Source: Lachnospiraceae bacterium (GTDB taxonomy: Bacteria; Bacillota; Clostridia; Lachnospirales; Lachnospiraceae). From it: a stretch of 61,010 nt of DNA. Made by a program: the position numbers and the translations under genes. Location of the stretch: positions 1 to 61,010 of the forward strand of contig JAFUFL010000065.1 in NCBI GenBank assembly GCA_017469935.1, in the 5' to 3' direction. The notes under the pieces are model-generated. The model ran no database searches, was not told the origin of the DNA, and saw nothing but the letters and a program-made list of their open reading frames with translations. Below are positions 32,984-57,357 of the stretch, one piece after another; within the stretch, counting starts at the first letter, position 1, and the number at the start of each line of letters is the position of its first letter.

Positions 32984-33099
32984 CGCAACAGATGGGTAGC
33001 ATCCGTTGCGTTTATTCACTCATCTGCTCATCAATATGCACGGAATGGAGACAATAGAGGAACGACAGAAAAGCATTCAGGCCGGGCGAAGAATAAAAT
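32984..33099 (+). promoter_or_regulatory. Glycoside-regulon promoter module 1 (araC-GH39 gene)
   Basis: CGCAACAGA (32984), nine bases, TCCGTTGCG; 26 bases after its GC, the degenerate core ATGCAC (33036-33041); exactly 24 bases; CAGAAAAGCAT (33066-33076); -10 TAAAAT at 33094-33099. It is the weakest match base by base, but every spacing equals that in three other modules (116 bp in total). The -10 covers the ATG at 33098, which therefore cannot be the start codon. Confidence 0.75.
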
Positions 33100-33148
33100 G
33101 TACAAGTGGGAAGCTGCATATTTTGGACATAACAAAGTGAGGGGTTCA

Positions 33149-35548
33149 ATGGGACTGAATCATCTGGAATACAAAATAGTCAAGGCCGGTTCTGAAGAAA
33201 GCTTTATGCAGACAGATCTGATCGTTCTCTATGTTTTGGAAGGTGAAATGAGCGTCAGATACTACGGCGACAAGATCCGCATGAAAAAGGACGACATCCT
33301 TCTGATCAACTCCGGCATGGAATACGGGATCTGCGGGATCGGAGACACGATCTACGGAACAGCGTCATTTTCCATCGGGATCATTTCGCAGATCATGGAC
33401 AAAAAGAGCCTGATGCTGTATGTGGACTCCGCCAGAGACGTACTTCACACTTATCAGGACCTCAGGGATATCCTTCAGGAGATGACCGCGGAGTATATCC
33501 TGCACGCGCATAAGACGCGTGCGGCTATGGACAGCCTGATGCTGCGGCTTCTGGACTGCCTGATCGAGAACTACCAGCTGGGCCAGGGGCAGATCGAGGC
33601 GGACGAGAACGACACGGACGCCAGAATGCGGCAGATGATGCAGTATATCATCAATCACATCCACGATGAGATCAGCCTCTCCGACCTGGCCAACGAAATG
33701 TATGTATCCACGTCGACGCTGTCCAGAATTTTCAAGAAAAATACAGGGATGTACTTCGCGGACTACGTCATGAGGCTGCGCGTCCGCACATCGCTGGGAC
33801 TCCTGCGCACTTCCGAGCAGAACCTGACCCAGATCGCCATGAACTGCGGCTTTTCTACGTCCGCGGCCTTCAACCGCTCTTTCAAAAAAGTGACCGGCAT
33901 GATGCCTTCCGAATACAGGAAGCAGTACCAGGTCTCGGTCGAAAGCGAGGAGCAGGAAGCCAGAGATGAGCAGGAGATCAGAGAAGAACTGCGCAGAAAA
34001 GGATATCAGTACAGCCGGCAGGACAACCGGAAGGAATATGAGCTGAACCTGAGCGAGCTCAGTCCCGCTTCCTACAAACAGGTGTGGAACCGCTGCATTA
34101 ACGTGGGCAGCCTGTATGAACTGAGCCGGGCCAACACCCAGTTCCATGTGGTCTATCTGCAGGAACATCTTCATTACAAGTATATAAGGCTCTGGAATAT
34201 TTTCTCCGAGAAGATGATGGTCTCGGACGGAAAGACGCTGGGGCACTACAATTTTGACCTGATCAATCAGGTGCTGGATTTTATGGTGGTCCACCACTTG
34301 AAACCTTTCCTTGATCTCGGAAAGAGGCCGGACACGGCGATCCGCGCGCAGGGAAAAGCAATCTATTATAAAGAGGAATACATCCATTTTGTTTCCCGGG
34401 AGATCTGGGAGGATATTCTGCGCGCTTTCCTGGACAATGTGGTCAGCCGATACGGGATCGAGGAAGTGAGCGGATGGATCTTCGAGCTCACGCAGGATTT
34501 CCACACGGAAGAGAACAGGATCTTCGAAGACGAGCACTATGATCTCTTTGAGGTCTGGAAGATCGCGCACACGGCGATCCGCGAGAAGGCACCGGGCGCC
34601 ATGCTCGGCGGAATCTCGACGGTCATAGAGGTCGACAGGACTTTTGCCGAGAATTTCTTTAAGCGCTGTGTAAAGGAAGACTGCCGGCCGGATTTCGTAT
34701 CCTTCTTCCTCTATCCCTATGAGATGGTGAGCGGGCCGCACGGAGAATCCTTGAAGAGAGTCGCCACCGTCAACATGCGGTTTGAACTGGAACGGATCCT
34801 TCAGATGAAAGCGCTGATGCGGGAAGTGGGGTTGGAAGACTGCAAGCTCTTTCTCTCGGAATGGAACAACTCGATCGGAAACCGGAATTATCTCAATGAC
34901 AGCTGCTTCAGAGCAGCATATCTGGTTGCGAAGACCGTGGAGATGTGGGGGATGACCGACATGACGGCTGTCATGGGAGGTACAGACTGGGTCAGCAGCT
35001 ATATCGATACAAATAAGGTCTTAAACGGAGGCGTCGGACTCCTGACCAAGGATACGATCGCAAAGCCCGCCTTCTACGCCTTTTCCTTCCTCGAACACAT
35101 GGGAACCCAGTACCTGTCGAGAGGGGATCACTATCTTCTGACCAAAAAAGGAAACGGGGACCTGTACCTTTTGTGCTATAACTTCTGCTGGTTTCAACAG
35201 AATGGAATCATGAACAATGATGAAGTCGATCTGGACCGGATCCGGCAGATCCGCTACGACGACGAGCGAAAGCTTGAGATGAGTTTCACGCTCAGAGGGA
35301 TGTCGGAAAAAGGGGAGTATACGATCAAGAAAAGGTCACTCAATAAGCAGAGCGGGAGCGTTCTGGACGAGTGGGAGAGGCTGGGCTATGAGACAAAGCT
35401 CAACCGGGAGGACGTCAAGTATCTGCAGGCAATCAGCGTGCCCAGGATCGAGATGGAGAGAGTGGCGACAGACGTCTTCAGAAACCTTTCGATCAAGGTC
35501 AAGCTCCAGCCGCAGGAAGTGGTCCTGCTGCATATCTATAAAGTTTGA
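33149..35548 (+). CDS. AraC regulator fused to GH39-like domain (probable sugar-sensing activator)
   Basis: From the ATG at 33149 (GAGGGG at 5 bp; upstream ATGs lie on or before the -10 box) the protein has 799 residues. Residues 1-160 form an AraC cupin-like sensor. About 175-262 is a complete AraC double helix-turn-helix (LSDLANEMYVSTSTLSRIFK and LTQIAMNCGFSTSAAFNRSFKKVTGMMPSEYR). About 330-799 is a GH39 beta-xylosidase-like TIM barrel with beta domain. The usual W-NEP acid/base motif is FELTQDF here (residues 445-451), with no Asn-Glu-Pro, whereas the nucleophile motif LSEWN (Glu571) remains. I infer a non-hydrolysing sugar-binding domain that controls DNA binding. It carries the same promoter module as its presumed targets, so it is likely self-regulated. 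Confidence 0.85.
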   Translation: MGLNHLEYKIVKAGSEESFMQTDLIVLYVLEGEMSVRYYGDKIRMKKDDILLINSGMEYGICGIGDTIYGTASFSIGIISQIMDKKSLMLYVDSARDVLHTYQDLRDILQEMTAEYILHAHKTRAAMDSLMLRLLDCLIENYQLGQGQIEADENDTDARMRQMMQYIINHIHDEISLSDLANEMYVSTSTLSRIFKKNTGMYFADYVMRLRVRTSLGLLRTSEQNLTQIAMNCGFSTSAAFNRSFKKVTGMMPSEYRKQYQVSVESEEQEARDEQEIREELRRKGYQYSRQDNRKEYELNLSELSPASYKQVWNRCINVGSLYELSRANTQFHVVYLQEHLHYKYIRLWNIFSEKMMVSDGKTLGHYNFDLINQVLDFMVVHHLKPFLDLGKRPDTAIRAQGKAIYYKEEYIHFVSREIWEDILRAFLDNVVSRYGIEEVSGWIFELTQDFHTEENRIFEDEHYDLFEVWKIAHTAIREKAPGAMLGGISTVIEVDRTFAENFFKRCVKEDCRPDFVSFFLYPYEMVSGPHGESLKRVATVNMRFELERILQMKALMREVGLEDCKLFLSEWNNSIGNRNYLNDSCFRAAYLVAKTVEMWGMTDMTAVMGGTDWVSSYIDTNKVLNGGVGLLTKDTIAKPAFYAFSFLEHMGTQYLSRGDHYLLTKKGNGDLYLLCYNFCWFQQNGIMNNDEVDLDRIRQIRYDDERKLEMSFTLRGMSEKGEYTIKKRSLNKQSGSVLDEWERLGYETKLNREDVKYLQAISVPRIEMERVATDVFRNLSIKVKLQPQEVVLLHIYKV

Positions 35549-35595
35549 TACCAAAATAGTGAGTTTGACATCCTAGTATTCGTCTCCTGATGAAA

Positions 35596-35640
35596 CGGAC
35601 CGCAACAAGGAACTTCTCTTTGTTGCGGTCCGCTGCTTTT
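35596..35640 (+). terminator. Terminator after araC-GH39, overlapping promoter module 2
   Basis: CGGACCGCAACAA (35596-35608) pairs perfectly with TTGTTGCGGTCCG (35620-35632), followed by GCTGCTTTTT. Its inner part is the operator dyad of the next promoter, so one sequence serves as terminator in RNA and as binding site in DNA. Confidence 0.8.
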
Positions 35641-35727
35641 TGCGCCCAAACAGGGAGCGGTACTTGCAACCCGTAGAGGATCAAGCGGAAACGGTGAAAA
35701 GAATATCGCAGAATGCCTCTGTAAAAT
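35601..35727 (+). promoter_or_regulatory. Glycoside-regulon promoter module 2 (GH3-GH43)
   Basis: CGCAACAAG (35601) and CTTTGTTGCG (dyad partner TTTGTTGC at 35619-35626); TTGCAA at 35664-35669; exactly 24 bases; GTGAAAAGAAT at 35694-35704; -10 TAAAAT at 35722-35727. The gap between dyad and TTGCAA is 37 bases against 26 in most modules, about one helical turn more. Confidence 0.85.
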
Positions 35728-35778: not shown

Positions 35779-37980
35779 ATGAAATTGACCGGAGAACAGC
35801 AGAAAAAAGTGGAATCCATTCTGTCTCAGATGACTCTGGAGGAGAAGATCGGGCAGATGAACCAGGAATCTCCTTCTATAGTGGGAGGATTCGACGTCCC
35901 GTTCTCGGAACTGATCGAGATGCTCACGGACGGAAGACTTGCCCAGGAGGAATTTGAGCGCCTTATGTCTACGGCCAAGCAGGACTTTCATGAAGAAGAG
36001 ATCCGGGCCGGGCTGGTCGGATCGGTGATGGGAAATGATCCGAGAAAAGCGAACGAACTGCAGAAGATCGCCGTCGAGGAGACGAGACTGGGAATTCCCC
36101 TGATCATCGGATTTGACGTAATTCACGGCCTGCGCAGTGTTTTCCCCATAGCGATCGCGGAGGCGGGATCCTTCGACGACGCGCTGTTTGAAGAGACGGC
36201 CCGGATGGTGGCAAAGGAATCCAGGGCCCACGGAATCAGCTGGAACTTCGCCCCCATGATCGATGTGGCGCGTGACTCCCGCTGGGGCCGCGTATCCGAG
36301 GGACCCGGCGAGGACACCTTCCTGGGGAGCCGCTTTGCGAGGGCAAAGATCAGAGGCCTGCAGGGAGACACTTCCGACACCGGTAATTACGTGGCGGCCT
36401 GCACCAAGCACTATATCTGCTACGGGGCCTGTGAGGGCGGGAGAGACTACAACACGACGTCCATGTCCACTTCACAGCTCTACAACGTTTATCTGCCGAC
36501 CTTCCGCGCGGCTATGGAAGAAGGCGCCGCGACGGTTATGGCTGCTTTCAATGATCTGAACGGGGTTCCCTGCACGGTCAATGAGTATCTGCTCCGCGAT
36601 GTTCTCAAGAAGGAACTGGGACTGGACGGATTTGTGGTGAGTGACGCCAACGCCATCAAGGAATGTGTCATCCACGGAATCGCGGCGGACGACGCCGACG
36701 CGGGCGTACAGGCGGCGATCGCCGGAATGGACATGGATATGGGAACCCATATCTACAAGGACCACCTGAAAGCGGCTGTAGAGAGCGGAAAAGTCTCTAT
36801 GGAAGTCATCGATGAGGCGGTCCGCAGGATCCTGAGCGTCAAGGTGTGGCTGGGCCTCTTCGAGCATCCCTATGTGCCGGAAGAAGTGATCGAGGCCTAT
36901 GAGAAGGGGATCCCGGCGGAGCACGCCGCGCTTGCGCGCAAAGCCGCGGAGGAGTCCATTGTCCTGCTCAAGAATGACGGGGCTGTGCTGCCGCTGGACA
37001 AGAGCCGCAGGATCAGCCTGGTCGGCACACTGGCGGATTCGGCGGACGAAGTGACCGGCGCCTGGGCCATGGGATGGAAGAAAGAGGACTGCGTCACTAT
37101 TTTGGACGGCTTTAAGAACGCGGGTGCGAATGTTTCCTATTATCCCTGCGGCGGGCCGGAGGGAAATCTGAATGAAGAAGAGCTGGCGGCGGCCTGCAAG
37201 GACGGCGACGTCATCGTAGCGATCGTCGGCGAGACGACCGCCATGTCCGGAGAAGCCTCCTCCAAAGCGGACATCACGCTTCCCGGCAGACAGAGAGAAA
37301 TGCTGGCAAAGCTGATCGCATCGGGAAAACCCGTCGTCACGGTCTTCATGAACGGCAGACCGCTGGCGCTGGGATGGGAAGCGGAGCATCTCCCGGTCAT
37401 GGTCGAGGCCTGGCACCTGGGCATCCAGATGGGGAATGCGGTTGCGAGCGTTCTCTATGGAGAAGTGGCGCCCAGCGCGAAGCTCTCGTCCTCGTTCCCT
37501 TATGTGAACGGACAGTGCCCGCTCTATTACAACCACCCTTCCACGGGAAGGCCGGCCGGAAAGAGCAAGTTCACGTCCAAGTATCTGGATGCGCCGGCGG
37601 AGGCACTGTTCCCGTTTGGATACGGACTCAGCTACACGACGTTTGCCTACAGCGACCTGCGCGTGGAGGAAAAGAAAGACTGCCTGGAAATCTCCGTGAA
37701 GATCGCCAACACCGGAGAGCGCGCCGGCGTCGAAGCCGCGCAGCTCTATATGCAGGATGTCACGGCGAGCCTTGTGCGCCCGGTCAAAGAGCTCAAGGGC
37801 TACAAGAGAGTGGCGCTCGAAGCGGGCGAAGAGAAGGAAGTCTCCTTCGTACTTGCCAAGAAGGACATGGGCTTCTACGACAACGCCGGAAACTATCGCC
37901 TGGAGGACGGCCTCTTCCGAATCTGTGCGGGCGCAAATTCCAGAGACCTGCTGGAAGAGGAAATTACGGTCAGATTTTGA
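35779..37980 (+). CDS. GH3 family beta-glycosidase (beta-glucosidase/xylosidase type)
   Basis: A 733-residue GH3 enzyme without signal peptide, so it works inside the cell on imported oligosaccharides. The N-terminal barrel has MTLEEKIGQMNQES, GIPLIIGFDVIHGLRSVFPI, ACTKHYICYGACEGGRDYNTT and the nucleophile motif GFVVSDANAIKECV with Asp289. The second alpha/beta sandwich (ESIVLLKNDGAVLPLDKS) and a C-terminal fibronectin-III-like domain (PFGYGLSYTTFAYSDL) complete a BglX-like architecture. I choose the ATG at 35779 after GGGGGG, because the first in-frame ATG (35731) lies only 4 bp past the -10 box. A GH43 gene follows 43 bp later in the same operon, which suggests xylo- or arabino-oligosaccharide substrates. 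Confidence 0.9.
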   Translation: MKLTGEQQKKVESILSQMTLEEKIGQMNQESPSIVGGFDVPFSELIEMLTDGRLAQEEFERLMSTAKQDFHEEEIRAGLVGSVMGNDPRKANELQKIAVEETRLGIPLIIGFDVIHGLRSVFPIAIAEAGSFDDALFEETARMVAKESRAHGISWNFAPMIDVARDSRWGRVSEGPGEDTFLGSRFARAKIRGLQGDTSDTGNYVAACTKHYICYGACEGGRDYNTTSMSTSQLYNVYLPTFRAAMEEGAATVMAAFNDLNGVPCTVNEYLLRDVLKKELGLDGFVVSDANAIKECVIHGIAADDADAGVQAAIAGMDMDMGTHIYKDHLKAAVESGKVSMEVIDEAVRRILSVKVWLGLFEHPYVPEEVIEAYEKGIPAEHAALARKAAEESIVLLKNDGAVLPLDKSRRISLVGTLADSADEVTGAWAMGWKKEDCVTILDGFKNAGANVSYYPCGGPEGNLNEEELAAACKDGDVIVAIVGETTAMSGEASSKADITLPGRQREMLAKLIASGKPVVTVFMNGRPLALGWEAEHLPVMVEAWHLGIQMGNAVASVLYGEVAPSAKLSSSFPYVNGQCPLYYNHPSTGRPAGKSKFTSKYLDAPAEALFPFGYGLSYTTFAYSDLRVEEKKDCLEISVKIANTGERAGVEAAQLYMQDVTASLVRPVKELKGYKRVALEAGEEKEVSFVLAKKDMGFYDNAGNYRLEDGLFRICAGANSRDLLEEEITVRF

Positions 37981-38023
37981 AACTGTACGACGGCAGGATA
38001 ACAGAAAAGAGGAGAAAGACAGC

Positions 38024-39649
38024 GTGGAAAAGAAAATTAAGAACCCGATCATCCCCGGCTTCTATCCGGACCCTTCCATCTGCAGAGCGGGCGACGACTA
38101 TTATCTGGTTTGCTCCAGCTTCGAGCTGAGCCCCGGACTTCCGCTCTTTCACAGCAAAGATCTGGCGGGCTGGGAGCAGATCTCCTATGTGCTCACGCCG
38201 CAGAACGGCTTCTATGTGGACAAGAATACGGGAAACGGCGGCGTTATGGCCCCCACGATCCGCTATCACGAGGGGACCTTCTACATCATAAACTGCAATT
38301 TCGGCGACCGCGGCAACTTCATCGTCACGGCGAAGGACCCGGCCGGTCCCTGGTCGGCCCCGCACTTCCTCGATGATGTGCCGGGAATTGACGCCTCTCT
38401 CTTTTTTGACAGCGACGGCAAATGCTACATCATGGGAACCGCCAATATCTGGCCGGACGGCAAGGGCGGAATGCGCCAGGGAATCTGGGCGGCCGAGTAT
38501 GACATTGAAAACTTCCGCCTGGTCTCCGAGCCCGTCGCCCTCTGGGGAGGCGCCATGGCGGGCGTCGCGTCGCCCGAATCGCCACATATCTATCACATCG
38601 GTGACTGGTACTATCTGCTGATCGCGGAGGGCGGCACGGAGATGTACCACAGCGCCACGGTGGCGAGAAGCCGCACTGTGCTGGGGACCTATGAGAGCGA
38701 TCCTTCCAATCCCATTCTCACGGTCCGGCACATGGGCAAAAAAGCGCCGATCCAGAACGCCGGCCACGCCGATCTGGTGCAGACGCAGAGTGGTCAGTGG
38801 TACGCCGTATTTCTCGCTTCCCGCCTGATCGGCGGCGTCAGCAAGAACCTGGGCAGAGAGACATTTATCGTGCCTGTGGAGTGGGAGGACGAGTGGCCGC
38901 TCTTTTCCCCGCAGACCGGCAAGGTGGAATGGGAGTATCCGATTCCGGAGAATTCCCCGTGGGCGCCGGTGGAAAAAGCGCCGGTTCGGGAAGAGCTCGG
39001 GAAAGCGCCGCTGAGCCTGGCCTGGAGCTTCTGGGGGAGTGATGGCGAGAAGTTCGCGGAACTGACGCAGGAGGGGCTCAGGCTCCCCTGCCTGAAGGAA
39101 GCGCCCGCAGATCCGCTCCGTCCCATGGCTATGGGGGCGCAGAGACCGGAGAACAATTCTCTGGCCTTTGTATGCAGAAGACGTCTGCAGCCCCACTGCC
39201 GCTTCTTATGCAGGATGCGCTTTGCGCCGCAGGGGAGTGAGAGCGCGGGAATCGCGATCGTGCAGGCCATGAATCACCAGTTCCACCTGGAACTTGCCCG
39301 TGCGGACGGTCAGACGGTGGTTCAGCTGCTGCAGTACACTGCGGATTACGATCTGCAGCCCTATTTTCCCGGTTTTACATCGACCACGAACAGAAAGGTG
39401 CTGGCCTGCGCCCCTTATGAAGGCGGGGAGATCGTCATGGAGACGGAGATGGACGAGAACTGCTATATCTTCCGCTACGGAGCTCAGGAGGGCGCGCTCA
39501 CGGAGCTTGCCCGCGCGGACGGCGCCGTGATCAACCCTGAAAAAGTGGGCTGTATGGTGGGAGAAGTGCTGGGCCTGTACGCCAGCGGAAACGGGCGCGA
39601 TGCGGACAACAGCGCGCTGTTTTGCCGGTCGGAATACGAGGACCTCTGA
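38024..39649 (+). CDS. GH43 family xylosidase/arabinofuranosidase
   Basis: This enzyme begins at a GTG codon (38024), 8 bp after AGAGGAGA; upstream in-frame codons belong to the GH3 gene's region. It has 541 residues. The N-terminal five-blade propeller starts NPIIPGFYPDPSICRAGDDYYLVCSSFE, with the catalytic base Asp in FYPDPS, a central Asp in VPGIDASLFFD, and the acid Glu probably in SPESPHIYH. The C-terminal part (from about residue 330) is the concanavalin-like beta-sandwich common in GH43 beta-xylosidases. It is intracellular and is co-transcribed with GH3 under promoter module 2. The pair would trim arabinoxylan-type oligosaccharides. Confidence 0.9.
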   Translation: MEKKIKNPIIPGFYPDPSICRAGDDYYLVCSSFELSPGLPLFHSKDLAGWEQISYVLTPQNGFYVDKNTGNGGVMAPTIRYHEGTFYIINCNFGDRGNFIVTAKDPAGPWSAPHFLDDVPGIDASLFFDSDGKCYIMGTANIWPDGKGGMRQGIWAAEYDIENFRLVSEPVALWGGAMAGVASPESPHIYHIGDWYYLLIAEGGTEMYHSATVARSRTVLGTYESDPSNPILTVRHMGKKAPIQNAGHADLVQTQSGQWYAVFLASRLIGGVSKNLGRETFIVPVEWEDEWPLFSPQTGKVEWEYPIPENSPWAPVEKAPVREELGKAPLSLAWSFWGSDGEKFAELTQEGLRLPCLKEAPADPLRPMAMGAQRPENNSLAFVCRRRLQPHCRFLCRMRFAPQGSESAGIAIVQAMNHQFHLELARADGQTVVQLLQYTADYDLQPYFPGFTSTTNRKVLACAPYEGGEIVMETEMDENCYIFRYGAQEGALTELARADGAVINPEKVGCMVGEVLGLYASGNGRDADNSALFCRSEYEDL

Positions 39650-39997
39650 TTCCTTGCAAGAAACGAACTCTATTATTGCAAAAAGTGAATCGTACGGCAG
39701 CTATTCATTTCGCGCTGCAACAAATATTTTTCTTTATTTGCAAGGAACGAAACAGATTGTGGCGGTTAAACCGTATCGACAGAAGGTCCAAAAATAGATA
39801 ATGAATGCAAGCGTTGTGATTATTCGGCCTGCCGCCGGATAGTTGCAAGATGTTAAGTATCCTGTGTTGTTTCCAAGACAAGGGTCCATGACCCGCACAG
39901 AGGTATCTGCATTGCGCCGAGGGCAGCCGGATCAGTCATCACGGATCTGCAGCATAAGGGGGAGGCCCGAGGCGCCAGTAAAAGGAGGAATGTAATA
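39650..39997 (+). promoter_or_regulatory. 348-bp control region before the GPH symporter
   Basis: No gene is seen. Five [T/C]TGCAA cores occur at 39654, 39676, 39715, 39738 and 39843. Three are extended as TTGCAA-N4-YGAA (39654, 39676, 39738). TGCAACAAA (39716-39724) with TTTATTTGC (39733-39741) is an imperfect version of the regulon dyad. The motif CTGTGTTGTTTCCAAG (39862-39877) is the complement of the element found at the start sites of the 44384 and araA genes. No matching GTGAAAAGAAT box and -10 were found, so this promoter differs from the six modules. Confidence 0.55.
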
Positions 39998-41404
39998 ATG
40001 GAAGAAAAGAAAACTGCTCCCGTGCAGGAAAAGGCCAGCCCGAAACTGTTAGTAGGCTATGGTCTTGGTGAAGTCGGATGCCAGATGAGCTGGTATATGA
40101 TCAACAACTATCTGAACATTTTCTACACGGACGTTGTAGGACTTACAGGCGCAGCGATCTCCACGATCGTCCTGATCGCCAGAATCTGGGACGCGATCAA
40201 CGACCCTATGATGGGGCAGATCGCGGACCGCACCCATACACGCTGGGGTAAGTTCCGTCCCTATCTGATGTTCGCACCGCCCGTCCTTGCGATCTTCAAT
40301 ATTTTGACCTTCACGGTATTCCCGGTACAGGGCCTGGCCAAGGTAATCCTCTGCGGCCTTTGCTATATCGGCGCCGGCATGGCTTACACAGCATGCTCCA
40401 TTGCTTATCAGGCGCTGCTCAACGTTATCGCGGTTGACTCCAGAGTCCGTCAGCTCCTTGCCACAGCAAGAAGTACCGGCGCATCCATCATCGGCATCAT
40501 CCTTTCGATGGTCGCTATGCCCCTGATCCTTCATTTCAGTTCTGCTGTTAACGCAAACGGAGAGAAGATGGCGGACGGTCACGGCTACTTCGTGGCAACA
40601 GTGATCTTCTCCCTGATCCTGATCCCTGTTTTCTGGCTCTGCGCAGCGATCTGCAAAGAGACTTATACGGACAAGCTTCACAGCAACGCTCCTGCAGAGA
40701 AGGCTACTTTCATGGACAACATGAAGGGCCTGTTCCAGAATGATCAGCTGCTCATGGTCGTCATCGCGACTGTCATTGGAACCATCTGCGTGACCGGTCG
40801 TTACGGAATCCTTGTCTATCATGTTATCTACGTCGTAGGCGGCCCGCAGTACATTGCTACTATGTTCACCGCCATGACAGTCGGTCAGCTTTGCGGCACA
40901 CTTACGGTTCCGTGGGGCACCAAGATGTTCGGCAAGCGCAACTATATGATCATTATGAATGTGATCATGGCAGCAGGCTTTGTGGCACTGTTCCTCAATC
41001 CCACCAGCAACCCTGTATACCTGATCGGCGCCTCATTCATCGGATCTCTCGGATTCGGTGCTCCGGCAATCTGCTACGGCATGGTCGGCGACTCCCTCGA
41101 GTACGGCGACTGGAAACTCGGAAAGCGCCAGGAAGGTCTTGCTGCTTCCATGCTCAGCTTCGGCGTCAAGCTGGCAACTGCGATCTGCGCGCCTGTAGTC
41201 CTGCTTCTTGAGGCAGTTGGTTATGTTCCCAACGTAGAGCAGGCCGCTTCCACCAAGATAGGCATCAACTTCATGGTCAACATGCTGCCCGCGATCCTCG
41301 CGATCGTATCCTGCATCCCGCTGATCTGGTACAAGCTCGATGACAAGCGCGTCGGTGAGATCCGTGCGGACCTCGAGGCCGGCAAGCACGCATGGGACAA
41401 ATAA
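39998..41404 (+). CDS. GPH-family sugar:cation symporter (MFS)
   Basis: A 468-residue membrane protein with twelve hydrophobic helices. The glycoside-pentoside-hexuronide cation symporter signature is clear: GYGLGEVGCQMSWYMINNYLNIFYTDVVGL at the start, then ARIWDAINDPMMGQIADRTHTRWGKFRPYL. The loop near residue 350-370 has DSLEYGDWKLGKRQEG, a conserved GPH stretch. It imports a di- or oligosaccharide or pentoside with Na+ or H+. Its place between GH3-GH43 and a GH106-like enzyme suggests that it feeds these cytoplasmic hydrolases. It starts after AAAGGAGGAA and is preceded by an unusually long control region. Confidence 0.9.
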   Translation: MEEKKTAPVQEKASPKLLVGYGLGEVGCQMSWYMINNYLNIFYTDVVGLTGAAISTIVLIARIWDAINDPMMGQIADRTHTRWGKFRPYLMFAPPVLAIFNILTFTVFPVQGLAKVILCGLCYIGAGMAYTACSIAYQALLNVIAVDSRVRQLLATARSTGASIIGIILSMVAMPLILHFSSAVNANGEKMADGHGYFVATVIFSLILIPVFWLCAAICKETYTDKLHSNAPAEKATFMDNMKGLFQNDQLLMVVIATVIGTICVTGRYGILVYHVIYVVGGPQYIATMFTAMTVGQLCGTLTVPWGTKMFGKRNYMIIMNVIMAAGFVALFLNPTSNPVYLIGASFIGSLGFGAPAICYGMVGDSLEYGDWKLGKRQEGLAASMLSFGVKLATAICAPVVLLLEAVGYVPNVEQAASTKIGINFMVNMLPAILAIVSCIPLIWYKLDDKRVGEIRADLEAGKHAWDK

Positions 41405-44155: not shown

Positions 44156-44170
44156 ATAAGGTCCATTCAG

Positions 44171-44220
44171 GCGCCGTCTGCAACTTCAATCACTTGTTTG
44201 TTGCAGGCGGCGCTTTTTTT
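44171..44220 (+). terminator. Terminator after the GH106-like gene, overlapping promoter module 3
   Basis: GCGCCGTCTGCAAC (44171-44184) pairs with GTTGCAGGCGGCGC (44200-44213), followed by TTTTTTT. As at 35596, the terminator arms contain the TGCAAC/GTTGCA operator dyad of the following promoter. Confidence 0.85.
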
Positions 44221-48309: not shown

Positions 48310-48354
48310 TCATAGCAGGAAAGATCCACAGGGGATTTGTTAAGGAGGTAAGGC

Positions 48355-49908: not shown

Positions 49909-50594
49909 AAAAGAAAGTTTATGAGGCCAACATGCTGCTTCCCAAATATGGCCTGGTCACGTTTACCTGGGGCAACGTAAGCGGCGTCGACCGAGAGAAG
50001 AAAGTCTTTGTCATCAAGCCCAGCGGCGTTCCCTACGAGGATCTGAAGCCGGAAGACATGGTCGTCGTCAACTTCGACGGCAACAAGGTGGAAGGGGCAA
50101 TGAACCCTTCCTCCGACACGCCCACCCACGCATGGCTGTACAAGAAGTTCGAGACCATCGGTGGGATCGTGCACACGCATTCCTCCTACGCGACCAGCTG
50201 GGCCCAGTCCGGCCGCAGCATTCCCTGCTACGGAACGACCCACGCGGATTATTACTACGGTGAGGTCCCCTGCCTGCGGTGCCTCACAGAGGAGGAGATC
50301 GAGGACGCTTATGAGCTGAACACAGGAAAGCTCATTGTCGACGAGTTCGCCCGCATGGGCAAGGATCCCGAGGCGGTCTCCGCAGTTATCTGCAAGAACC
50401 ACGGTCCCTTCGCCTGGGGCAAGGACCCGGAAGACGCCGTCCACTGTGCGGTCGTTCTGGAAGAAGTCGCCAAAATGGCCTTCCGTACAGAACTGATCAA
50501 TCCCAAGGTGCAGCCCGCTCCTCAGGAGCTGCAGGACAAGCACTATTACAGAAAGCACGGCGCCAACGCGTATTACGGCCAAGGTGCCAAATGA
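49893..50594 (+). CDS. araD: L-ribulose-5-phosphate 4-epimerase
   Basis: A 233-residue class II aldolase/epimerase. From the ATG at 49893 (after GGAGG) it reads [35 protein letters not shown], the family N-terminus. [29 protein letters not shown] follows, then the metal site [16 protein letters not shown] with its two His residues, and [19 protein letters not shown] with another His. It converts L-ribulose 5-phosphate to D-xylulose 5-phosphate, feeding the pentose phosphate pathway. The start lies inside the end of araB, and the stop overlaps the next small gene by 4 bp (ATGA), so all are translationally coupled. Confidence 0.95.
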
Positions 50595-50876: not shown

Positions 50877-50992
50877 TGCAACAATGTACACCTGTTTGTT
50901 GCACGCCTTGATATTCGCACCCGATGGTTTGCAAAAAAAGTAACTATCACAGAAACAGGTGAAAAGAATACACGTCTCCGTTTATATACAAT
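50877..50992 (+). promoter_or_regulatory. Glycoside-regulon promoter module 4 (oxidoreductase 51056)
   Basis: TGCAACAAT (50877) and TTTGTTGCA (50895-50903); 26 bases after the GC, TTGCAA at 50929-50934; exactly 24 bases; GTGAAAAGAAT at 50959-50969; -10 TACAAT at 50987-50992. Total 116 bp. A weak Shine-Dalgarno-free leader of 63 bases follows to the start codon at 51056. Confidence 0.9.
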
Positions 50993-51055: not shown

Positions 51056-52126
51056 ATGAAAGACATCGGAATTGCGATCATCGGACATGGATTCATGGGC
51101 CATGAGCACGAGAAAATGCTTCTGGACTTCCCCGGAATCAAACTGATCGGCTTTGCGGACATCGATCCGAAGCAGCTCGAAGACGTGACGGAAGGACTCA
51201 AGAGATATTCCAGCAACGAAGAGCTGATGGCGGATCCTGAGGTCGACGTAGTCCTGATCGCCGCAAACAACAGATTCCACAAGGATCTTGTCATTCAGGC
51301 GGCTAATGCGAAGAAGGACATCATCTGCGAGAAGCCCATCGCCATGAGCCTCGAAGAGCTCGATGAGATGGAAGCGGCCGTCAAGGCAAACGGCGTGAAG
51401 TTCACCGTCCACCACCAGAGACGCTTCGATCCCGACTTCCGCACAGCGAAGGCCGTCTATGACTCCGGCACACTGGGAGATGTCTACTGCGTCAAGAGCA
51501 TGCTCTATGGCTTCAACGGCAATATGCACGACTGGCACGTCTTCGTGAGCGAAGGCGGCGGAATGCTCTATGACTGGGGCGTACACCTCCTGGACCAGTT
51601 CTGCTGGATGTTCCCCGGCGCCAAACTCAAATCCGTATTCGCCGACATCCGCAACGTCATCAACACAGAGGTTGACGACTACTTCCAGATCATGATGCGC
51701 TTCGACAACGGCGTGACGGCAACTTTGGAGCTGGGCACCTACTTCCTGACCGACAAGATGCACGACAAGTGGTTCGAGCGCCACTGGTTCATCGGCGGCA
51801 ACAAAGGAAGCGCCTATGTAGACGGTTTCGGACCGGAAGGCAAGATCGTCCGCACCAACGGCCTTTTGCAGAATGTCGGCGGCAAGCGCACCATGACGGC
51901 CGCAGGCCCCACAAGGTCCTTCGGACCGCCGCCGGAAGGAAAGATCCTCACCGAGGAGCTTCCTAAGGTCGACACCAATCACAGAAATTACTTCGAGAAC
52001 TATGTCAAAGCATGGCACGGCGAAGAAGAATTCCTGGTCAAGATTCCGGAGACCCGCCGCGTACTGCGCCTGATGGATGCGGTCAGAGAGTCCGGAAGGA
52101 CCGGAAAATCCATCGATTTTGAATAA
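51056..52126 (+). CDS. Gfo/Idh/MocA-family oxidoreductase
   Basis: A 356-residue NAD(P)-dependent sugar dehydrogenase of the Gfo/Idh/MocA family. The Rossmann loop is GIAIIGHGFMGHEH, the catalytic-lysine motif is CEKPIAMSLEELDEM, and the later GGGMLYDWGVHLLDQFCWM carries the conserved Asp and His pair. Members oxidise sugar hydroxyls; DgpA-type ones make the 3-oxo group on glycosides before C-glycoside cleavage, which fits this island, but scyllo-inositol or other sugar oxidation is equally possible. It begins after AAAGGAGGG under promoter module 4 and is followed by a terminator. Confidence 0.85.
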   Translation: MKDIGIAIIGHGFMGHEHEKMLLDFPGIKLIGFADIDPKQLEDVTEGLKRYSSNEELMADPEVDVVLIAANNRFHKDLVIQAANAKKDIICEKPIAMSLEELDEMEAAVKANGVKFTVHHQRRFDPDFRTAKAVYDSGTLGDVYCVKSMLYGFNGNMHDWHVFVSEGGGMLYDWGVHLLDQFCWMFPGAKLKSVFADIRNVINTEVDDYFQIMMRFDNGVTATLELGTYFLTDKMHDKWFERHWFIGGNKGSAYVDGFGPEGKIVRTNGLLQNVGGKRTMTAAGPTRSFGPPPEGKILTEELPKVDTNHRNYFENYVKAWHGEEEFLVKIPETRRVLRLMDAVRESGRTGKSIDFE

Positions 52127-52149: not shown

Positions 52150-52192
52150 ATCCCGGCTCCTTCGCTGAATGCGAAGGGGCTGGGATATTTCC
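52150..52192 (+). terminator. Terminator after oxidoreductase 51056
   Basis: ATCCCGGCTCCTTCGC (52150-52165) pairs with GCGAAGGGGCTGGGAT (52171-52186), followed by ATTTCC. Moderate terminator. Confidence 0.7.
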
Positions 52193-52225
52193 ATTTACAC
52201 AAACGATATAGACCGGAGGAGAACA

Positions 52226-53260
52226 ATGCATCAGGAAATCATTACACTGTCCGAAGAGAGGAATGTGACATTAACAGCCATGATTCAGGGCGTGGGAGGC
52301 GAATTTCGAGGAATCTCTGCGAGACCTGCAGTACTTGTGATCCCGGGAGGCGGATATCAGTTCTGTTCAGACAGAGAGGCAGATCCCGTCGCTTTTGCCT
52401 TCATGAAAGCCGGATACCACGCCTTTATCCTTCGCTATTCCGTGGGAGAATACAGCAAGTGGCCCCAGCCCCTGAAGGACTATGAGCAGGCGATGGAATG
52501 TATTTCCGACAAGGCGGAAGAATGGCATGTGATGACAGACAAGATCGCTGTCATCGGCTTTTCGGCCGGTGGCCATCTCGCAGGAGCGGCTGCGACCATG
52601 GGACGCCGTCGTCCGGCTGCCGCTATTCTCGGATATCCGGTACTGAGGCGGGAAACAGCACTCGAAATCGGGCAGAATATGCCCGGTATTCCGGAACACG
52701 TGGATGAGAACACCTGCCCCTGCTTTTTGTTTGGGACAAGAACGGACAGCGTAGTTCCGGTCCAGAATATTGTCGATATGTTGAATGCGCTTGGCCGCTT
52801 TCATACAACCTACGAGTGTCATATCTATGCGTATGGCCCTCACGGCTTCGCGACGGGAGACCACTCCGTGCAGAGCTGTGAGACTCTGTTCCCGGAAAGG
52901 GGAGCCCGCTGGATCGATGACAGCATCAGCTGGCTGCACGACCTCTTCGGAGACTGGGGCAATGAGGGACTGACAAGGCCTGTACTGCGTCCTCATGTCA
53001 ATGACGATGCGCTTGCCTGGCTGAGCCTGGACTGCAGCATTTCCAGAATCTACGGAAACCCCAAAGCCAGGGAAACGCTTTCAGAAACAATCCGTAAAAT
53101 GAAGGAGAGAATCACTCCGTTCACGCCGGAGATGACGTTCGACGATATGATGCAGGCACTCGGCAAGATGACGCTGAGAGACCTTCTGGTCGAGAGGGGA
53201 ATCGATACAGACAAATTGGACGAACTCAATGAGGCACTCGGGAAGATCCCGAATATCTGA
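52226..53260 (+). CDS. Alpha/beta-hydrolase esterase with extra C-terminal helical domain
   Basis: From the ATG at 52226 (after CGGAGGAG) the protein has 344 residues. Residues about 1-250 are an alpha/beta hydrolase of the BD-FAE/acetyl esterase kind: PAVLVIPGGGYQFCSDREADPVAFAFMKAGYHAFILRYSVG (oxyanion hole), the nucleophile elbow VIGFSAGGHLAGAAATMG with Ser in GFSAG, an acid in FLFGTRTDSVVP, and His in YGPHGFATG. No signal peptide is present. The last 85 residues (from about EGLTRPVLRPHVNDDALAW) are a helical extension not typical of these esterases and unrecognised. It could remove acetyl or feruloyl groups from imported oligosaccharides. Confidence 0.8.
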   Translation: MHQEIITLSEERNVTLTAMIQGVGGEFRGISARPAVLVIPGGGYQFCSDREADPVAFAFMKAGYHAFILRYSVGEYSKWPQPLKDYEQAMECISDKAEEWHVMTDKIAVIGFSAGGHLAGAAATMGRRRPAAAILGYPVLRRETALEIGQNMPGIPEHVDENTCPCFLFGTRTDSVVPVQNIVDMLNALGRFHTTYECHIYAYGPHGFATGDHSVQSCETLFPERGARWIDDSISWLHDLFGDWGNEGLTRPVLRPHVNDDALAWLSLDCSISRIYGNPKARETLSETIRKMKERITPFTPEMTFDDMMQALGKMTLRDLLVERGIDTDKLDELNEALGKIPNI

Positions 53261-53268: not shown

Positions 53269-53384
53269 TGCAATAAAAGGAAACTATTTATTGCACGTTC
53301 TCCAAAAGCAGGATGTGATCCTGCAAGAGATGTGGCGCAAACTAAAACCTCGGAAAAGAATGCGCTATGAGAAACAGATACTAT
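53269..53384 (+). promoter_or_regulatory. Glycoside-regulon promoter module 5 (TIM barrel 53503)
   Basis: TGCAATAAA (53269) and TTTATTGCA (53287-53295) form a perfect 9-bp dyad; CTGCAA at 53321-53326; exactly 24 bases; CGGAAAAGAAT at 53351-53361; -10 TACTAT at 53379-53384. Total 116 bp, as in modules 1, 4 and 6. A leader of about 110 bases follows. Confidence 0.85.
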
Positions 53385-53502
53385 ATATACAGAAACAGAC
53401 AACAGTAAAAAAGCTGCAGCGAAGAAGTCGTTAACAGCGTTGTGAAGACACCTGTCACTGCAGTATGGGAACAATATGAATGTAGAAAGGGAGGAACTTA
53501 AA

Positions 53503-54342
53503 ATGAGCAAAAAGCTTCCGGTTGGAATTCAGGTTTACGGCCTCAGAGATCTCCTTGAGAACACCCCTGAGAACTTCAAGAACGTAATGCAGAAAGTAAA
53601 GGAACTGGGCTATGACGGCGTTGAGCTGGCTGGTCTCTACGGCCTTACTCCTGAGTATGTCAAAGAAGTGCTGGACGAGGTAGGTCTTGTCCCGATCAGC
53701 GCACACGTAGCATTTGCTGAGATGATGGAAGATCTCGACACCATCATCGCTGACTATAAGAAGATCGGCGTAGAGTATCTGGTAATGCCTTACATGGCAG
53801 AAGAGTACCGTCCGGTCAATCCGGAAGGATTCAAGAAGTTCCTTCCCATGCTGAACGAAGTCGGCAAGAAGATCCACGACGCAGGCATGACTTTCCTGTA
53901 TCACAACCACGATTTCGAGTTCGTCAAGATGGCAGACGGCCAGTGGGGCTATGACGTAATGTTCGACTCCATCCCTCACGACAACCTTATGCCCGAGCTT
54001 GACACCTGCTGGTGCGATGTCGCGACAGGCGACGCTCCCGGCTTTATCAAGAAGTACACAGGCCGCATCCCTGTAATCCACCTCAAGGACTACATCAAGA
54101 AGGGTGAAGTCAAGAACATGTACAAGCTGATCGGTATCGATGAAGAAGAGTCCGAAGGCGACACCGGTTACTTCGGCCTTCGCGCTGTCGGCTTTGGCCA
54201 GATGATCTGGGAGCCCATCCTGGAGGCAGGTCTTGAAGCAGGCGCTAAGTGGGTCATCGTAGAGCAGGATGAGCACTACGAGCTGGATCCCCTGGAGTGC
54301 GCTAGAAGAAGCCGCGAGTATCTGAAGATCCTCGGCTGGTAA
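53503..54342 (+). CDS. Sugar isomerase/epimerase-like TIM barrel
   Basis: From the ATG at 53503 (after GGGAGG) the protein has 279 residues. It is a PF01261-type barrel: LPVGIQVYGLRDLLENTPENFKNVMQKVKELGYDGVELAG at the start, FLYHNHDFEFVK, ELDTCWCDVATGD, VIHLKDYIKKG and WVIVEQDEHYELD, giving the usual Glu/Asp/His/Glu metal site. It resembles 3-oxo-sugar or keto-sugar isomerases found beside Gfo/Idh/MocA enzymes. An earlier in-frame ATG (53476) lies before the ribosome site and is rejected. A structured 280-bp gap and then an oxidoreductase gene follow. It may process the 3-keto sugar released by the deglycosidase; that is inference. Confidence 0.8.
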   Translation: MSKKLPVGIQVYGLRDLLENTPENFKNVMQKVKELGYDGVELAGLYGLTPEYVKEVLDEVGLVPISAHVAFAEMMEDLDTIIADYKKIGVEYLVMPYMAEEYRPVNPEGFKKFLPMLNEVGKKIHDAGMTFLYHNHDFEFVKMADGQWGYDVMFDSIPHDNLMPELDTCWCDVATGDAPGFIKKYTGRIPVIHLKDYIKKGEVKNMYKLIGIDEEESEGDTGYFGLRAVGFGQMIWEPILEAGLEAGAKWVIVEQDEHYELDPLECARRSREYLKILGW

Positions 54343-54344
54343 AA

Positions 54345-54580
54345 AATTCGCTCAAAACGAGGAGCGAATAAAAAAGTTCGCTCACAACGAAGAGCGAACT
54401 TTGGAAGCCGCACAAGGTGCGGCTTCTGAATGAGCCATGCGCAGACAGGATGGCATGTGGACGATGAGAGCTTGCTCTCAATCGGCCGCATGACAGACTG
54501 GATGCATACGGCGAACGCCGCGACAATCGCAAGCCGCGGAGCGGCGCAGCGATATGTCGGCATGGCGAATACTCAAAAAG
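54345..54580 (+). ncRNA. Structured intergenic region with tandem hairpins
   Basis: Two tandem hairpins spaced 30 bp apart have arms ATTCGCTC/GAGCGAAT (54346-54369) and GTTCGCTC/GAGCGAAC (54376-54399). A third is GAAGCCGCAC/GTGCGGCTTC (54404-54426). Beyond it, to about 54560, come more GC-rich complementary blocks (GAGAGC-TTGC-TCTC, CCGCGGAGCGGC). No open frame is convincing. It may be an intercistronic stabiliser, processing site or attenuator between the TIM barrel and oxidoreductase genes. Only the three hairpins are certain. Confidence 0.45.
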
Positions 54581-54626: not shown

Positions 54627-55907
54627 ATGAAAGAACTCAGAATCGCCATCATCGGCTGCGGAATGATCTCCCACAGACACATGACCGTTATCGAGAACCT
54701 CAACAAGCGCGGACAGAACCTCAAGGTTGTCGCAGCTGCTGAGATCGACAAAGAGAAGCTCCTTGCATGGGGCAAGCAGTACGGCATCGCAGAAGAGAAC
54801 CTGTATCAGGACTTCCGTGAGATGCTCAAGCGTGACGACATCGACGAAGTAGAAGTTTGCGTACACAACAACCTTCACACATCTGTTGCAACCGCAGTTA
54901 TGGCAGCAGGATTCCCCTGCTACTCCGAGAAGCCCATGGCAGCAAGCTATGCAGATGCCAAGATCCTCTATGACGCACAGAAGAAATACGGCCAGAAGCT
55001 GGCAATCCAGATCAGCTCCATCTACAACCCTCAGACCCGTATTGCCAAGAAGATGATCGCGGAAGGCAAGCTCGGTGAGATCTATCACGTTCGCAGCGTT
55101 GGCCACAGACGTCAGGGCCGTCCCGGCTATGATATGCCTTTCTTCAGCCGCGACTTTATCGATCCCAAGGTAGGCGTACACGGACCTCTGTTCGACCTCG
55201 GCATCTATCACATTGCTCAGATGCTCTATGTCCTTGGCATGCCCGAGCTGGAGAGCGTTTACGGCTTCCAGAGCTCCAGATATTGGACACATCCCGCTAT
55301 TGACAAGATCACAAACCGCACCGCTCCTGTTGAGGACCTCGGCGTAGGTATGGCTCGCTTCAAGGGCGACATCTGCATGGACATCTATGAAGACTGGGCA
55401 ATCCACATGGAAGACATCGGATGCACATTCATCGCAGGTTCCCTGGGCGGACTTAAGTTCACAGACGTTGACCAGACCGGCGGCCCTATGGCAGTTCCGG
55501 AAGGCGGCCAGATCATGGGCGGCGGCGACCTTCAGAAGCCCAGACTGACTTACTACGGCATGAACGAAGACAACCAGCTCTTCACGACACAGCTTGACTG
55601 CGCTCTGACAGATACCTATGGCCTGCAGGAATCCCTGATCCATCCCGAGCTGGATCTGTACAACGACAACCAGCTGCAGTGGTACAGCTACCTTCGCGGC
55701 ATCCTGACCGACGAGACCAGAATCGACTCCCCTTACATCGCAATGCAGACCGCTCTGCTGTCCGAAGGCGTTGTTCTCTCCAACGAGCTCGGCCGCAGCG
55801 TAACCGTCGATGAGATCAAGAAGATGGCCAAGTCCATCGCGATCCGCGATCAGGAGACTCCTTTCGGAACCATCCACTACGATTTCGACGAGTACAAGCC
55901 CGAGTAA
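54627..55907 (+). CDS. Gfo/Idh/MocA-family oxidoreductase, long form
   Basis: A 426-residue member of the family, longer than the usual 340-360. The N-terminal Rossmann motif is IAIIGCGMISHRHMTVI, the lysine motif is YSEKPMAASYADAKIL, and GVHGPLFDLGIYHIAQMLYVLG carries the conserved residues of the active site. The additional length is in the C-terminal domain (around MAVPEGGQIMGGGDLQKPRLTYYGMNEDNQLF). It starts after AGGAAAGGAACC. It may act on a glycoside or keto sugar together with the TIM barrel upstream, with which it probably shares a transcript. Cofactor NAD(H) or NADP(H) is not decided. Confidence 0.85.
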   Translation: MKELRIAIIGCGMISHRHMTVIENLNKRGQNLKVVAAAEIDKEKLLAWGKQYGIAEENLYQDFREMLKRDDIDEVEVCVHNNLHTSVATAVMAAGFPCYSEKPMAASYADAKILYDAQKKYGQKLAIQISSIYNPQTRIAKKMIAEGKLGEIYHVRSVGHRRQGRPGYDMPFFSRDFIDPKVGVHGPLFDLGIYHIAQMLYVLGMPELESVYGFQSSRYWTHPAIDKITNRTAPVEDLGVGMARFKGDICMDIYEDWAIHMEDIGCTFIAGSLGGLKFTDVDQTGGPMAVPEGGQIMGGGDLQKPRLTYYGMNEDNQLFTTQLDCALTDTYGLQESLIHPELDLYNDNQLQWYSYLRGILTDETRIDSPYIAMQTALLSEGVVLSNELGRSVTVDEIKKMAKSIAIRDQETPFGTIHYDFDEYKPE

Positions 55908-56029: not shown

Positions 56030-56100
56030 ATTAGGATGAACAAACGCAATAAACAAATTGAAAAACAGTACAAATGATGCGCCGCATAGGCCTTTGCATA

Positions 56101-56106
56101 TATAAT
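56101..56106 (+). promoter_or_regulatory. -10 box of oxidoreductase 56147
   Basis: TATAAT at 56101-56106 lies 40 bp before the start codon. No regulon module is at the set distance, and no clear -35 was seen, so this gene is controlled differently from its neighbours. Confidence 0.4.
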
Positions 56107-56146
56107 ACAAATAACCGTTCAGATTCAGAACATAGGGAGGAACGAG

Positions 56147-57217
56147 ATGGACAAGAACAGGAAACTTAGGATCGGCGTGATCGGATGCGGCGCCATCTCT
56201 GTGAGGAGGCATCTTCCGGAGTATGCGGCAAATGAAAATGTCGAGATCGCAGCGCTCTACAACCGCACAAGAAGCAAAGCAGAGGAGATGCGGAAGATCT
56301 ATGGCGGCGTTGTCTGCGACAGCGTGGAAGAGATGGTCGCCATGGACCTGGATGCAGTCAGCGTCTGCACAGCCAATGCGATGCATGCGCATGACACTAT
56401 TTTGGCGCTGCGTGCCGGCAAGCATGTGCTCTGTGAGAAGCCCATGGATGTGACGATCGAGAAGTGTACCGCCATGGTAGAAGAGGCACGCAGATCCGGA
56501 AAGCTTCTTATGATCGCGCAGAACCAGCGGTTCTCGGCGGCACACAAAGAGGCGCACGACCTGATCGCGAAAGGCGCGATCGGAAAGGTCCTTTCTTTTG
56601 AGACCAAATTCGGACATGCAGGGCCGGAGCGCTGGACCGGCACGGAGGACACGTGGTTTTTCAGAAAGAATGCGGCCGGCATGGGCGCGCTGGCAGATCT
56701 GGGCATCCACAAGACGGACCTCGCCCATTATCTGATCGGCGAGCCGATCACACAGGTGTACGCACACACAGCAACGCTCGACAAGCGCTATCCGGACGGG
56801 AATCTGATTGATGTGGAGGATAACGCCTGGTGCATCTACCGCACAGACAGCGGTGTGACCGGTACTATGCACGCCAGCTGGACGGACTATGGCCATGAGT
56901 ATAATTCGATCATTGTTCACGGGACCAAAGGCGCGATTCGCTGCTACGATGACAGGGAATACAGTCTGATCCTGGAGGGAGATGACGGCAGACAGAATTT
57001 TCTCTCCACGGAGCAGATGATCAAGAACACAGACCAGACAATCGGAACCGGCAAAAGCTACAATTCCGGCGTCATCGATGAATTTGTGGACTGCATCCTG
57101 ACAGGCAGACCCTGCAGGTGTACGGGAGAGGAAGCGATCAAATCAATGCGGGTAATTTTCGCGGCCATGGCTTCCTCACAGATCGGCAGAATGGTGACGG
57201 TGCCGGAGAACCGGTAA
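56147..57217 (+). CDS. Gfo/Idh/MocA-family oxidoreductase
   Basis: A 356-residue family member. Rossmann motif: RIGVIGCGAISVRRHLPEYAA; lysine motif: LCEKPMDVTIEKCTAMVEEA; active-site Asp and His: GMGALADLGIHKTDLAHYLIGEPI. It differs clearly from the two other oxidoreductases of the island, so the three probably have distinct substrates or directions. Ribosome site GGGAGGAA. It ends 24 bp before the dyad of promoter module 6, whose hairpin can act as its terminator. Confidence 0.87.
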   Translation: MDKNRKLRIGVIGCGAISVRRHLPEYAANENVEIAALYNRTRSKAEEMRKIYGGVVCDSVEEMVAMDLDAVSVCTANAMHAHDTILALRAGKHVLCEKPMDVTIEKCTAMVEEARRSGKLLMIAQNQRFSAAHKEAHDLIAKGAIGKVLSFETKFGHAGPERWTGTEDTWFFRKNAAGMGALADLGIHKTDLAHYLIGEPITQVYAHTATLDKRYPDGNLIDVEDNAWCIYRTDSGVTGTMHASWTDYGHEYNSIIVHGTKGAIRCYDDREYSLILEGDDGRQNFLSTEQMIKNTDQTIGTGKSYNSGVIDEFVDCILTGRPCRCTGEEAIKSMRVIFAAMASSQIGRMVTVPENR

Positions 57218-57241
57218 ACGAATAAGGCTCGCAGAGCGAGC

Positions 57242-57357
57242 TGCAATAAAAGAAGGCCGTTTGTTGCAAATTGTGGGGAAGTCCCATGAGAGATTGCAAC
57301 AGACGGCCTTTTGTATGAACGGGGTGAAAAGAGCAAATCATACAAGGTTGTTAGAAT
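57242..57357 (+). promoter_or_regulatory. Glycoside-regulon promoter module 6 (sugar ABC transporter)
   Basis: TGCAATAAA (57242) and TTTGTTGCA (57260-57268); 26 bases after the GC, TTGCAA at 57294-57299; exactly 24 bases; GTGAAAAGAGC at 57324-57334; -10 TAGAAT at 57352-57357. Total 116 bp. AAGGCCGTTTGTTGCAA (57254-57270) can also pair with TTGCAACAGACGGCCTT (57294-57310), so terminator and operator overlap here too. Confidence 0.88.

Follow-up and report, generated by a model that had tools for sequence, protein, structure and literature searches.

AraC activators that combine tandem sites with distal operators are already known, and the half-sites of Escherichia coli AraC are spaced 21 base pairs (bp) apart. 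Certain gut bacteria convert dietary C-glycosyl flavonoids to their aglycones. In Eubacterium cellulosolvens the enzyme of the isovitexin and homoorientin pathway is DfgA/DfgB (sections of PMC11170127 and PMC8563793), and predicted AraC-family rhamnose regulators are described with 21-bp direct repeats (sections of PMC3870299). Here we consider a stretch of 61,010 nucleotides from a Lachnospiraceae bacterium (assembly GCA_017469935.1, contig JAFUFL010000065.1; hereafter the window), in which one promoter module recurs before six transcription units, among them the gene for an AraC-type regulator with a GH39-like domain (AraC-GH39). The locus resembles E. coli AraC at PBAD (I1–I2, DNA looping) in its AraC-type DNA-binding domain, in the tandem half-site reading that we propose and in an extra upstream site; as with I2, which according to part of PMC11434276 overlaps the −35, the promoter-proximal half-site would extend over that position. 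From the sequence we consider it likely that the six modules are operator-promoters of AraC-GH39 (33149–35548), which would activate its own gene together with those for the uptake and dismantling of C-glycosylated flavonoids.

The elements and their rigid spacing are observed directly. Re-reading the DNA places the modules, all on the + strand, exactly where the sequence-only reading had begun them, at 32984, 35601, 44179, 50877, 53269 and 57242. Each opens with a dyad of 27 bp, the arms of which lie 18 bp apart from start to start in all six, as had been claimed. Counted from the first base of the TTGCAA-like core, GAAAAG begins at +32 and the −10 hexamer at +58 in every case, whilst the distance from the dyad start to the core downstream is 52 bp in four cases and 62 or 63 bp in the remaining two. 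Module 1 (32984–33099; dyad 32984–33010, core from 33036, −10 TAAAAT at 33094–33099) stands before the AraC-GH39 gene itself, a position suggestive of autoregulation, and is the weakest of the six, with AGAAAAGCAT as its GAAAAG box. Module 2 (35601–35727; dyad 35601–35627, core 35664, −10 35722–35727) precedes GH3–GH43, and module 3 (44179–44304; dyad 44179–44205, core 44241, −10 44299–44304) precedes a TIM barrel/DUF6379 pair that we call cgdA–cgdB. Module 4 (50877–50992; dyad 50877–50903, core 50929, −10 50987–50992) lies before a Gfo/Idh/MocA oxidoreductase gene, module 5 (53269–53384; dyad 53269–53295, core 53321, −10 53379–53384) before a second TIM barrel gene (TIM2) and module 6 (57242–57357; dyad 57242–57268, core 57294, −10 57352–57357) before a sugar ATP-binding cassette (ABC) transporter. 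The predicted lengths from dyad start to −10 end, 116 bp for modules 1, 4, 5 and 6, 127 bp for module 2 and 126 bp for module 3, are correct, and domain scans agree with the names previously given to the downstream genes.

From the core onwards four blocks are conserved: TTGCA (0 to 4), T-G/A-x-A-G (10 to 14), a GGAAC-like block (23 to 27) and TGAAAAGAAT (31 to 40). Core and box had been taken as separate elements; both are indeed present at fixed spacing, but together the core and the GTGAAAAGAAT box seem to form a single 21-bp tandem site of AraC type and not a pair of unconnected elements. A self-comparison of the first 17 bases (seven lags; n = 30 modules, which are not independent) gives z 5.1 at lag 21, which with lag 30 (below) ranks highest of the seven. 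With the box at +31 to +37 and the −10 at +58, a spacer of 17 bp would put the −35 at +35 to +40, so that the promoter-proximal half-site would overlap it. The hexamer found there on that assumed spacer is AAGAAT, with 2/6 matches to TTGACA, in keeping with the claim that the box does not resemble a −35 consensus; the −10 is of the normal sigma-A type, TANNNT. The dyad arms and the core carry the same TGCAA, and simple arithmetic at 10.5 bp per turn predicts that arms, core and box would lie on one face of the DNA at a spacing of 52 and also at 62–63.

Such modules are not expected by chance. At up to three mismatches the dyad occurs at 6 places in the window, against 0.05 expected from shuffles; these are five of the six modules and an extra dyad at 39716, module 1 falling outside the cut. 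Throughout the genome the same search finds 7 distinct places, 6 of them on this contig. A profile made from sequence only, with 16 modules (six from the window and ten from relatives), scores the window modules at 52–61 bits in their own 3.55-Mb genome and the next place at only 18.4 bits. High scores are expected for modules that built the model, and the gap below them is the informative part: strong matches in this genome lie only at this locus and are not scattered at random. A scan for the whole architecture gave no match in 2.4 Mb and none in 3.0 Mb of Markov-random sequence, and none in the 86,912 bases of 29 other loci. A strict pattern of the architecture, which recovers four of the six window modules and cannot match 26-bp dyads, so that a missing match does not prove absence, was found in a single genome, our own, of the 392 searched in the order and in 6 of 62 genomes of the genus, with none for the reversed control in either set. 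Five of these six genus genomes have an AraC-GH39 match at E ≤ 1e-100, as do 8 of the 62 overall (Fisher p 5e-5; 3e-4 without our own genome). In the sixth, G206, the contig begins inside TIM2, is near-identical to the window downstream, and no cgdA was found in the assembly, so the regulator side of the locus is probably missing from it. Among the genomes searched, confinement of the module to AraC-GH39 loci is a direct observation. The dyad alone was discarded as a search tool, as it matches at two mismatches in 108 of 200 genomes of the family, only the full architecture being specific; a match at L031 in the relaxed scan was lost under the stricter one and left out of the counts. A plasmid search returned six records with weak matches, covering 12–13% of the query among the five matches listed.

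Conservation of the module is equally plain. Orthologues of the regulator occur in assemblies labelled Lachnospiraceae and Clostridia, one of them from sheep ileum, and a scan of relatives places modules before orthologous genes at the same spacings. Automatic site finding gave 30 usable rows of 33, failing for G265_MFS2 and G267_MFS2, which are not counted as modules, and for G233_Gfo1, recovered by a later scan. The orthologous modules number 23, in six genomes (G000, our own, and G261, G262, G263, G264 and G266). The dyad is 27 bp long in all 23, one of them (G262_Gfo1) with a poor left arm; GAAAAG stands at +32 in 23/23 and the −10 at +58 in 22/23. The distance between dyad and core, chosen by script as the best within a narrow range of offsets, is 51–52 in 15 and 62–63 in 8, with no value between, and it follows the gene: 51–52 for the regulator, oxidoreductase, TIM2 and transporter, 62–63 for GH3 and cgdA. 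The sequence between dyad and core is poorly conserved. Promoters orthologous to module 1 are present in G262, G263, G264 and G266. All six modules of G266 precede orthologues of the same six genes, three of them having had no part in the profile model, and G262 has six modules on four contigs, four of these modules likewise absent from it, plus two of a paralogous kind. Ten further modules at diverged loci have spacings of 50–53.

The 18.4-bit place (G000:C90:5683-5799) is itself informative: downstream of it are a TIM-barrel gene and a gene with a match to PF19906, the family of cgdB, and beside it is a second AraC-GH39 regulator of the same genome that is 37–39% identical to the first (locus L086, 1491–5799). 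Here the palindrome is 26 bp long, and the TGCAA core is followed 20 bp on by a second TGCAA, an interval seen in the paralogous modules G000b_TIM and G262b_MFS. De novo clustering of dyads recovered the family in the window and L081 and formed no such group in L083 or L085–L090, probably because these hold few modules or 26-bp ones; the modules at these loci were detected afterwards by eye and by scan.

Co-occurrence makes the AraC-GH39 protein the best candidate regulator of the six modules. An AraC-GH39 gene is common to the loci with the module, at identities as low as 29% (L011), and AraC-GH39 loci at 29–44% identity carry the module. Four cgdA homologues (50–86% identical; four of the nine matches in genomes G215 and G239) lie on three stretches with no full-length AraC-GH39 match beside them, and have no module even in the relaxed scan; the strict pattern was not found in either genome, and L161 shows one partial 26% match to the AraC-type domain. 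It appears from this pairing that the module tracks the regulator and not the enzymes. Among 200 genomes of the family, AraC-GH39 occurs in 18, PF19906 in 15 and both in 11 (Fisher p 1e-10; 8e-10 without our own genome). The first recognition helix of the regulator reads SxS[TS]LSR in 12/12 module loci, against 1 of 30 AraC-GH39 loci without a detected module (L071), or 2 of 30 once V may stand in place of L (adding L018), and 28 of those 30 have a tyrosine in this helix; L080, which also has the SxS[TS]LSR helix, is counted apart from the 12 and the 30. The wider stretch around L071 (L089) holds a perfect dyad of 27 bp, and the gene that follows begins, as judged by eye, with cgdA-like residues; the next TGCAA lies 72 bp from the dyad start, another turn away, and the rest of the promoter differs.

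The regulator itself (33149–35548, + strand) has 799 residues, with HTH_18 at residues 180–259 and the GH39-like domain at 310–771. Its double helix–turn–helix (HTH) domain of AraC type is clear (PF12833, 80.3 bits; PF00165, 54.6 bits; both over the cut-offs). The WNEP motif, which holds the GH39 acid/base residue, is lost, the aligned positions in nine regulators being T/A/S, Q/R/H/N, D and F/L/S, with the acid/base glutamate replaced by aspartate (D450) in 9/9. E571, aligned with the TEYN of 2bs9 and kept in 9/9, occupies what we take to be the position of the nucleophile glutamate. The reading of the domain as an active enzyme was set aside. With the nucleophile position retained and the acid/base glutamate gone, a sensing role is likely: the domain probably senses the glycoside or a product. 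A structure prediction (mean predicted local distance difference test 60.6, predicted template modelling score 0.47) was too poor for a fold search and was not used.

The enzyme families, which are directly observed, point to a specific pathway. The product of cgdA (44384–45256, + strand), a TIM barrel, matches chain 7bvs_A with E 2.8e-190 over 290/290 residues, and that of cgdB (45284–45727, + strand; PF19906, with several solved relatives labelled DUF6379) matches 7bvs_B with E 1.1e-85 over 147/147. The pair thus matches the alpha and beta subunits of a C-glycoside deglycosidase of DfgA/DfgB type. The closest solved relative of the oxidoreductase at 51056–52126 (+ strand) is DgpA2 (9m37, E 1.5e-127), DgpA (7xr9) following at E 4.1e-23. 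The sequence-only reading had proposed a glycoside regulon; the shared module before glycoside genes stands, whilst the pathway is narrower than glycosides in general and would be C-glycoside deglycosylation. GH3 (35806–37980, its start placed after the promoter although the longest open reading frame runs from 35731), GH43 (37970–39649, by domain match), an esterase-like alpha/beta hydrolase gene (52169–53260) that is likely in the same unit as the 51056 oxidoreductase, and the sugar ABC transporter complete the set, all on the + strand.

We infer the binding protein, the tandem reading, activation, looping and the ligand in the following scheme. Sigma-A RNA polymerase would meet a usable −10 but no −35. 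A dimer of AraC-GH39 would bind the tandem site through two half-sites 21 bp apart, the first with TTGCA at 0 and a TGAAG-like block at +10, the second with a GGAAC-like block at about +23 and TGAAAAG at +31; this second half-site would extend into the −35 position and recruit the polymerase. Five or six helical turns upstream, on the same face, the palindrome TGCAAC-N15-GTTGCA would bind more AraC-GH39, and it may contribute to activation or, in the absence of inducer, maintain a repressive loop, whilst the GH39-like domain, with no canonical WNEP motif, would probably sense the glycoside or its product. More tentatively, and with considerable doubt, we suggest that AraC regulators carrying a fused, enzyme-dead glycosidase domain form a clade that relies on a single fixed operator, a palindrome and a tandem with all boxes on one DNA face at distances of 5, 6 or 7 turns. 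This operator would serve across Lachnospiraceae as a transferable regulatory code for the catabolism of C-glycosides, in which the first HTH would read TGCAA in both inverted and direct sites and the palindrome could double as terminator of the upstream gene.

Several observations weigh against this scheme. Self-similarity at lag 30 is stronger than at lag 21 (z 8.9 against 5.1), so the assignment of half-sites is not unique; we attribute the lag-30 signal to the resemblance of TTGCAA to TGAAAA. Relatedness confounds the test of the first helix, and six of the 12 module loci are close orthologues, although several loci without modules match the window protein in this domain as well as, or nearly as well as, L011 and L009 do. 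For most of the 30 module-less loci the view extended only 1.5 kb either way from the regulator, and modules there may be missed. At L080, where the regulator is 68% identical with nearly the same recognition helices, no module was found before the regulator or GH3, nor was one found before GH3 at L082 (regulator 64% identical, incomplete); the profile gives nothing above 20 bits in either of the whole genomes that carry these two loci (G265 and G267). The L080 and L082 genomes have a compact gene order with only a dyad before the transporter gene MFS2, and either one site controls the whole unit or the link between regulator and module is looser than supposed. At L083 (G268, 10001–12413) the 55%-identical regulator is split into two frames, by decay or by assembly error, beside an intact cgdA–cgdB module. 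The module of L011 (29%) is weaker, with a 28-bp dyad, and precedes a phosphotransferase system gene rather than a deglycosidase, PF19906 lying about 16 kb away. In the window, the architecture scan found no full module before araA–FGGY–araD, GH106 or MFS2. Lastly, two full AraC half-sites of 17 bp do not fit within the 27-bp dyad, so either one HTH per subunit would engage there or another protein binds.

Two proteins might therefore share the module, with AraC-GH39 on the core–box tandem and a different dimeric regulator on the upstream palindrome. The poor fit of the palindrome to AraC half-sites would then be explained, as would the occurrence of a palindrome beside a direct repeat and that of a dyad with no full downstream half before MFS2. 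We nevertheless regard this arrangement as unlikely, as TGCAA is common to the dyad arms and the core of the same modules, AraC-GH39 is the only regulator identified at diverged loci (where not all genes were scanned for regulators), and at L085–L088 nothing matches the 277-residue AraC protein encoded at 30302 with more than 30% identity.

The dyads could also be intrinsic terminators of the upstream genes and nothing else, core and box alone forming the promoter signal. Those at 35601 and 44179 do lie in terminator-like hairpins on the + strand, each with a 16-pair stem followed by a T-run (35596–35632, from folding and a pattern scan; 44169–44215, from folding, absent from the pattern-scan list), which would end the transcripts of the preceding regulator and of GH106, respectively, and T-runs follow the dyad in several relatives. 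Terminators, however, need neither conserved TGCAA arms nor a length fixed at 27 bp nor helical phasing relative to the core, four of the six window dyads have by sequence no adjoining T-run of five or more, and dyad and terminator can coincide; as the sole function, termination is very improbable. We give almost no credence to the GAAAAGAAT box being the −35 element of an alternative sigma factor. The box does occupy the −35 position, and no other stretch of the core-to-box part is as well conserved, but the −10 is an ordinary sigma-A hexamer, the box belongs to a longer pattern that extends 30 bp upstream, and strong matches to the module keep to AraC-GH39 loci instead of occurring genome-wide. 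Binding of AraC-GH39 to the whole module is the reading we prefer.

Other features of the cluster lie around these units. TIM2 (53476–54342, + strand) is sugar isomerase-like and is followed by two Gfo/Idh/MocA genes (54627–55907 and 56147–57217); two neighbouring similar hairpins of the AATTCGCTC...GAGCGAATA type occupy 54345–54400, between TIM2 and the next oxidoreductase gene. The transporter comprises a sugar-binding protein (57398–58582, + strand), an ABC ATPase (58696–60240) and, by eye, a possible permease frame that runs from 60238 off the window end. An araA–FGGY kinase–araD unit (46849–50594) with a divergent AraC gene (45830–46696) lies inside the cluster and has no module, so that arabinose use seems to be under separate control. 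The extra dyad (39716–39742, + strand) stands before the MFS_2 transporter gene (39998) in a variant promoter with no GAAAAG box; in the window and three relatives this upstream region (39647–39998) has the dyad or several TTGCAA boxes, a conserved GATTGTGRCGG-like element and GATAAT, and is either a variant promoter or under different control. On the other side of the regulator, at 30302–32859, the 277-residue AraC gene diverges from a GH35/GH42-like gene with DUF5597, and in L077 and L081 both genes are likewise conserved next to AraC-GH39. Similar TGTGTCA...TGACACA inverted repeats occur three times, at 27300, 30266 and 30298, and are possibly a small mobile or repeat element.

In conclusion, the locus gives a candidate regulator, a precise putative operator and a pattern for genome searches that gives almost no background, by which regulon members and new C-glycoside loci become predictable. 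Some of the GH39 genes counted as "xylosidases" in gut genomes may encode sensors and not enzymes. In two Catenibacillus genomes, for example, 21 and 28 GH39 genes are read as glucosidases and xylosidases (part of PMC11170127), some of which may be AraC-GH39 regulators. Our search of one open-access library, which leaves room for prior description in subscription papers, found no regulator for clusters of dfg/dgp type. As far as that search goes, a regulator and operator code for C-glycoside deglycosidase clusters, with a fixed palindrome-plus-tandem layout, is new.

Comparison with the known systems sets this locus apart in several respects. With the dfg/dgp clusters of E. cellulosolvens and strain PUE it shares the type of alpha/beta deglycosidase and of Gfo/Idh/MocA oxidoreductase; for those clusters, the parts of PMC8563793 and PMC11170127 consulted name neither promoter nor regulator, and the word 'AraC' is absent from the main text of both. 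Like AryK and Rsp of Staphylococcus, the regulator is of AraC type, and their NCBIfam models match within its first 390 residues; membership was rejected, the scores of 159.8 and 60.3 lying far below the cut-offs of 850 and 400. The predicted AraC-family rhamnose regulators of Bacillales, Bacteroides and Enterococcus have other motifs and serve another pathway, and no palindrome-plus-tandem module is described for them in the relevant part of PMC3870299. E. coli RhaS and RhaR belong to the same family, in which binding to inverted repeats does occur; the same part of that paper gives RhaR two 17-bp half-sites with a 17-bp spacer, unlike the layout here, and describes no separate palindrome plus tandem. 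In contrast to E. coli AraC, the upstream site here is a TGCAA palindrome some 50–60 bp away and fixed relative to the promoter, the regulator carries a GH39-like domain C-terminal to its HTH, and one and the same module is repeated before six units.

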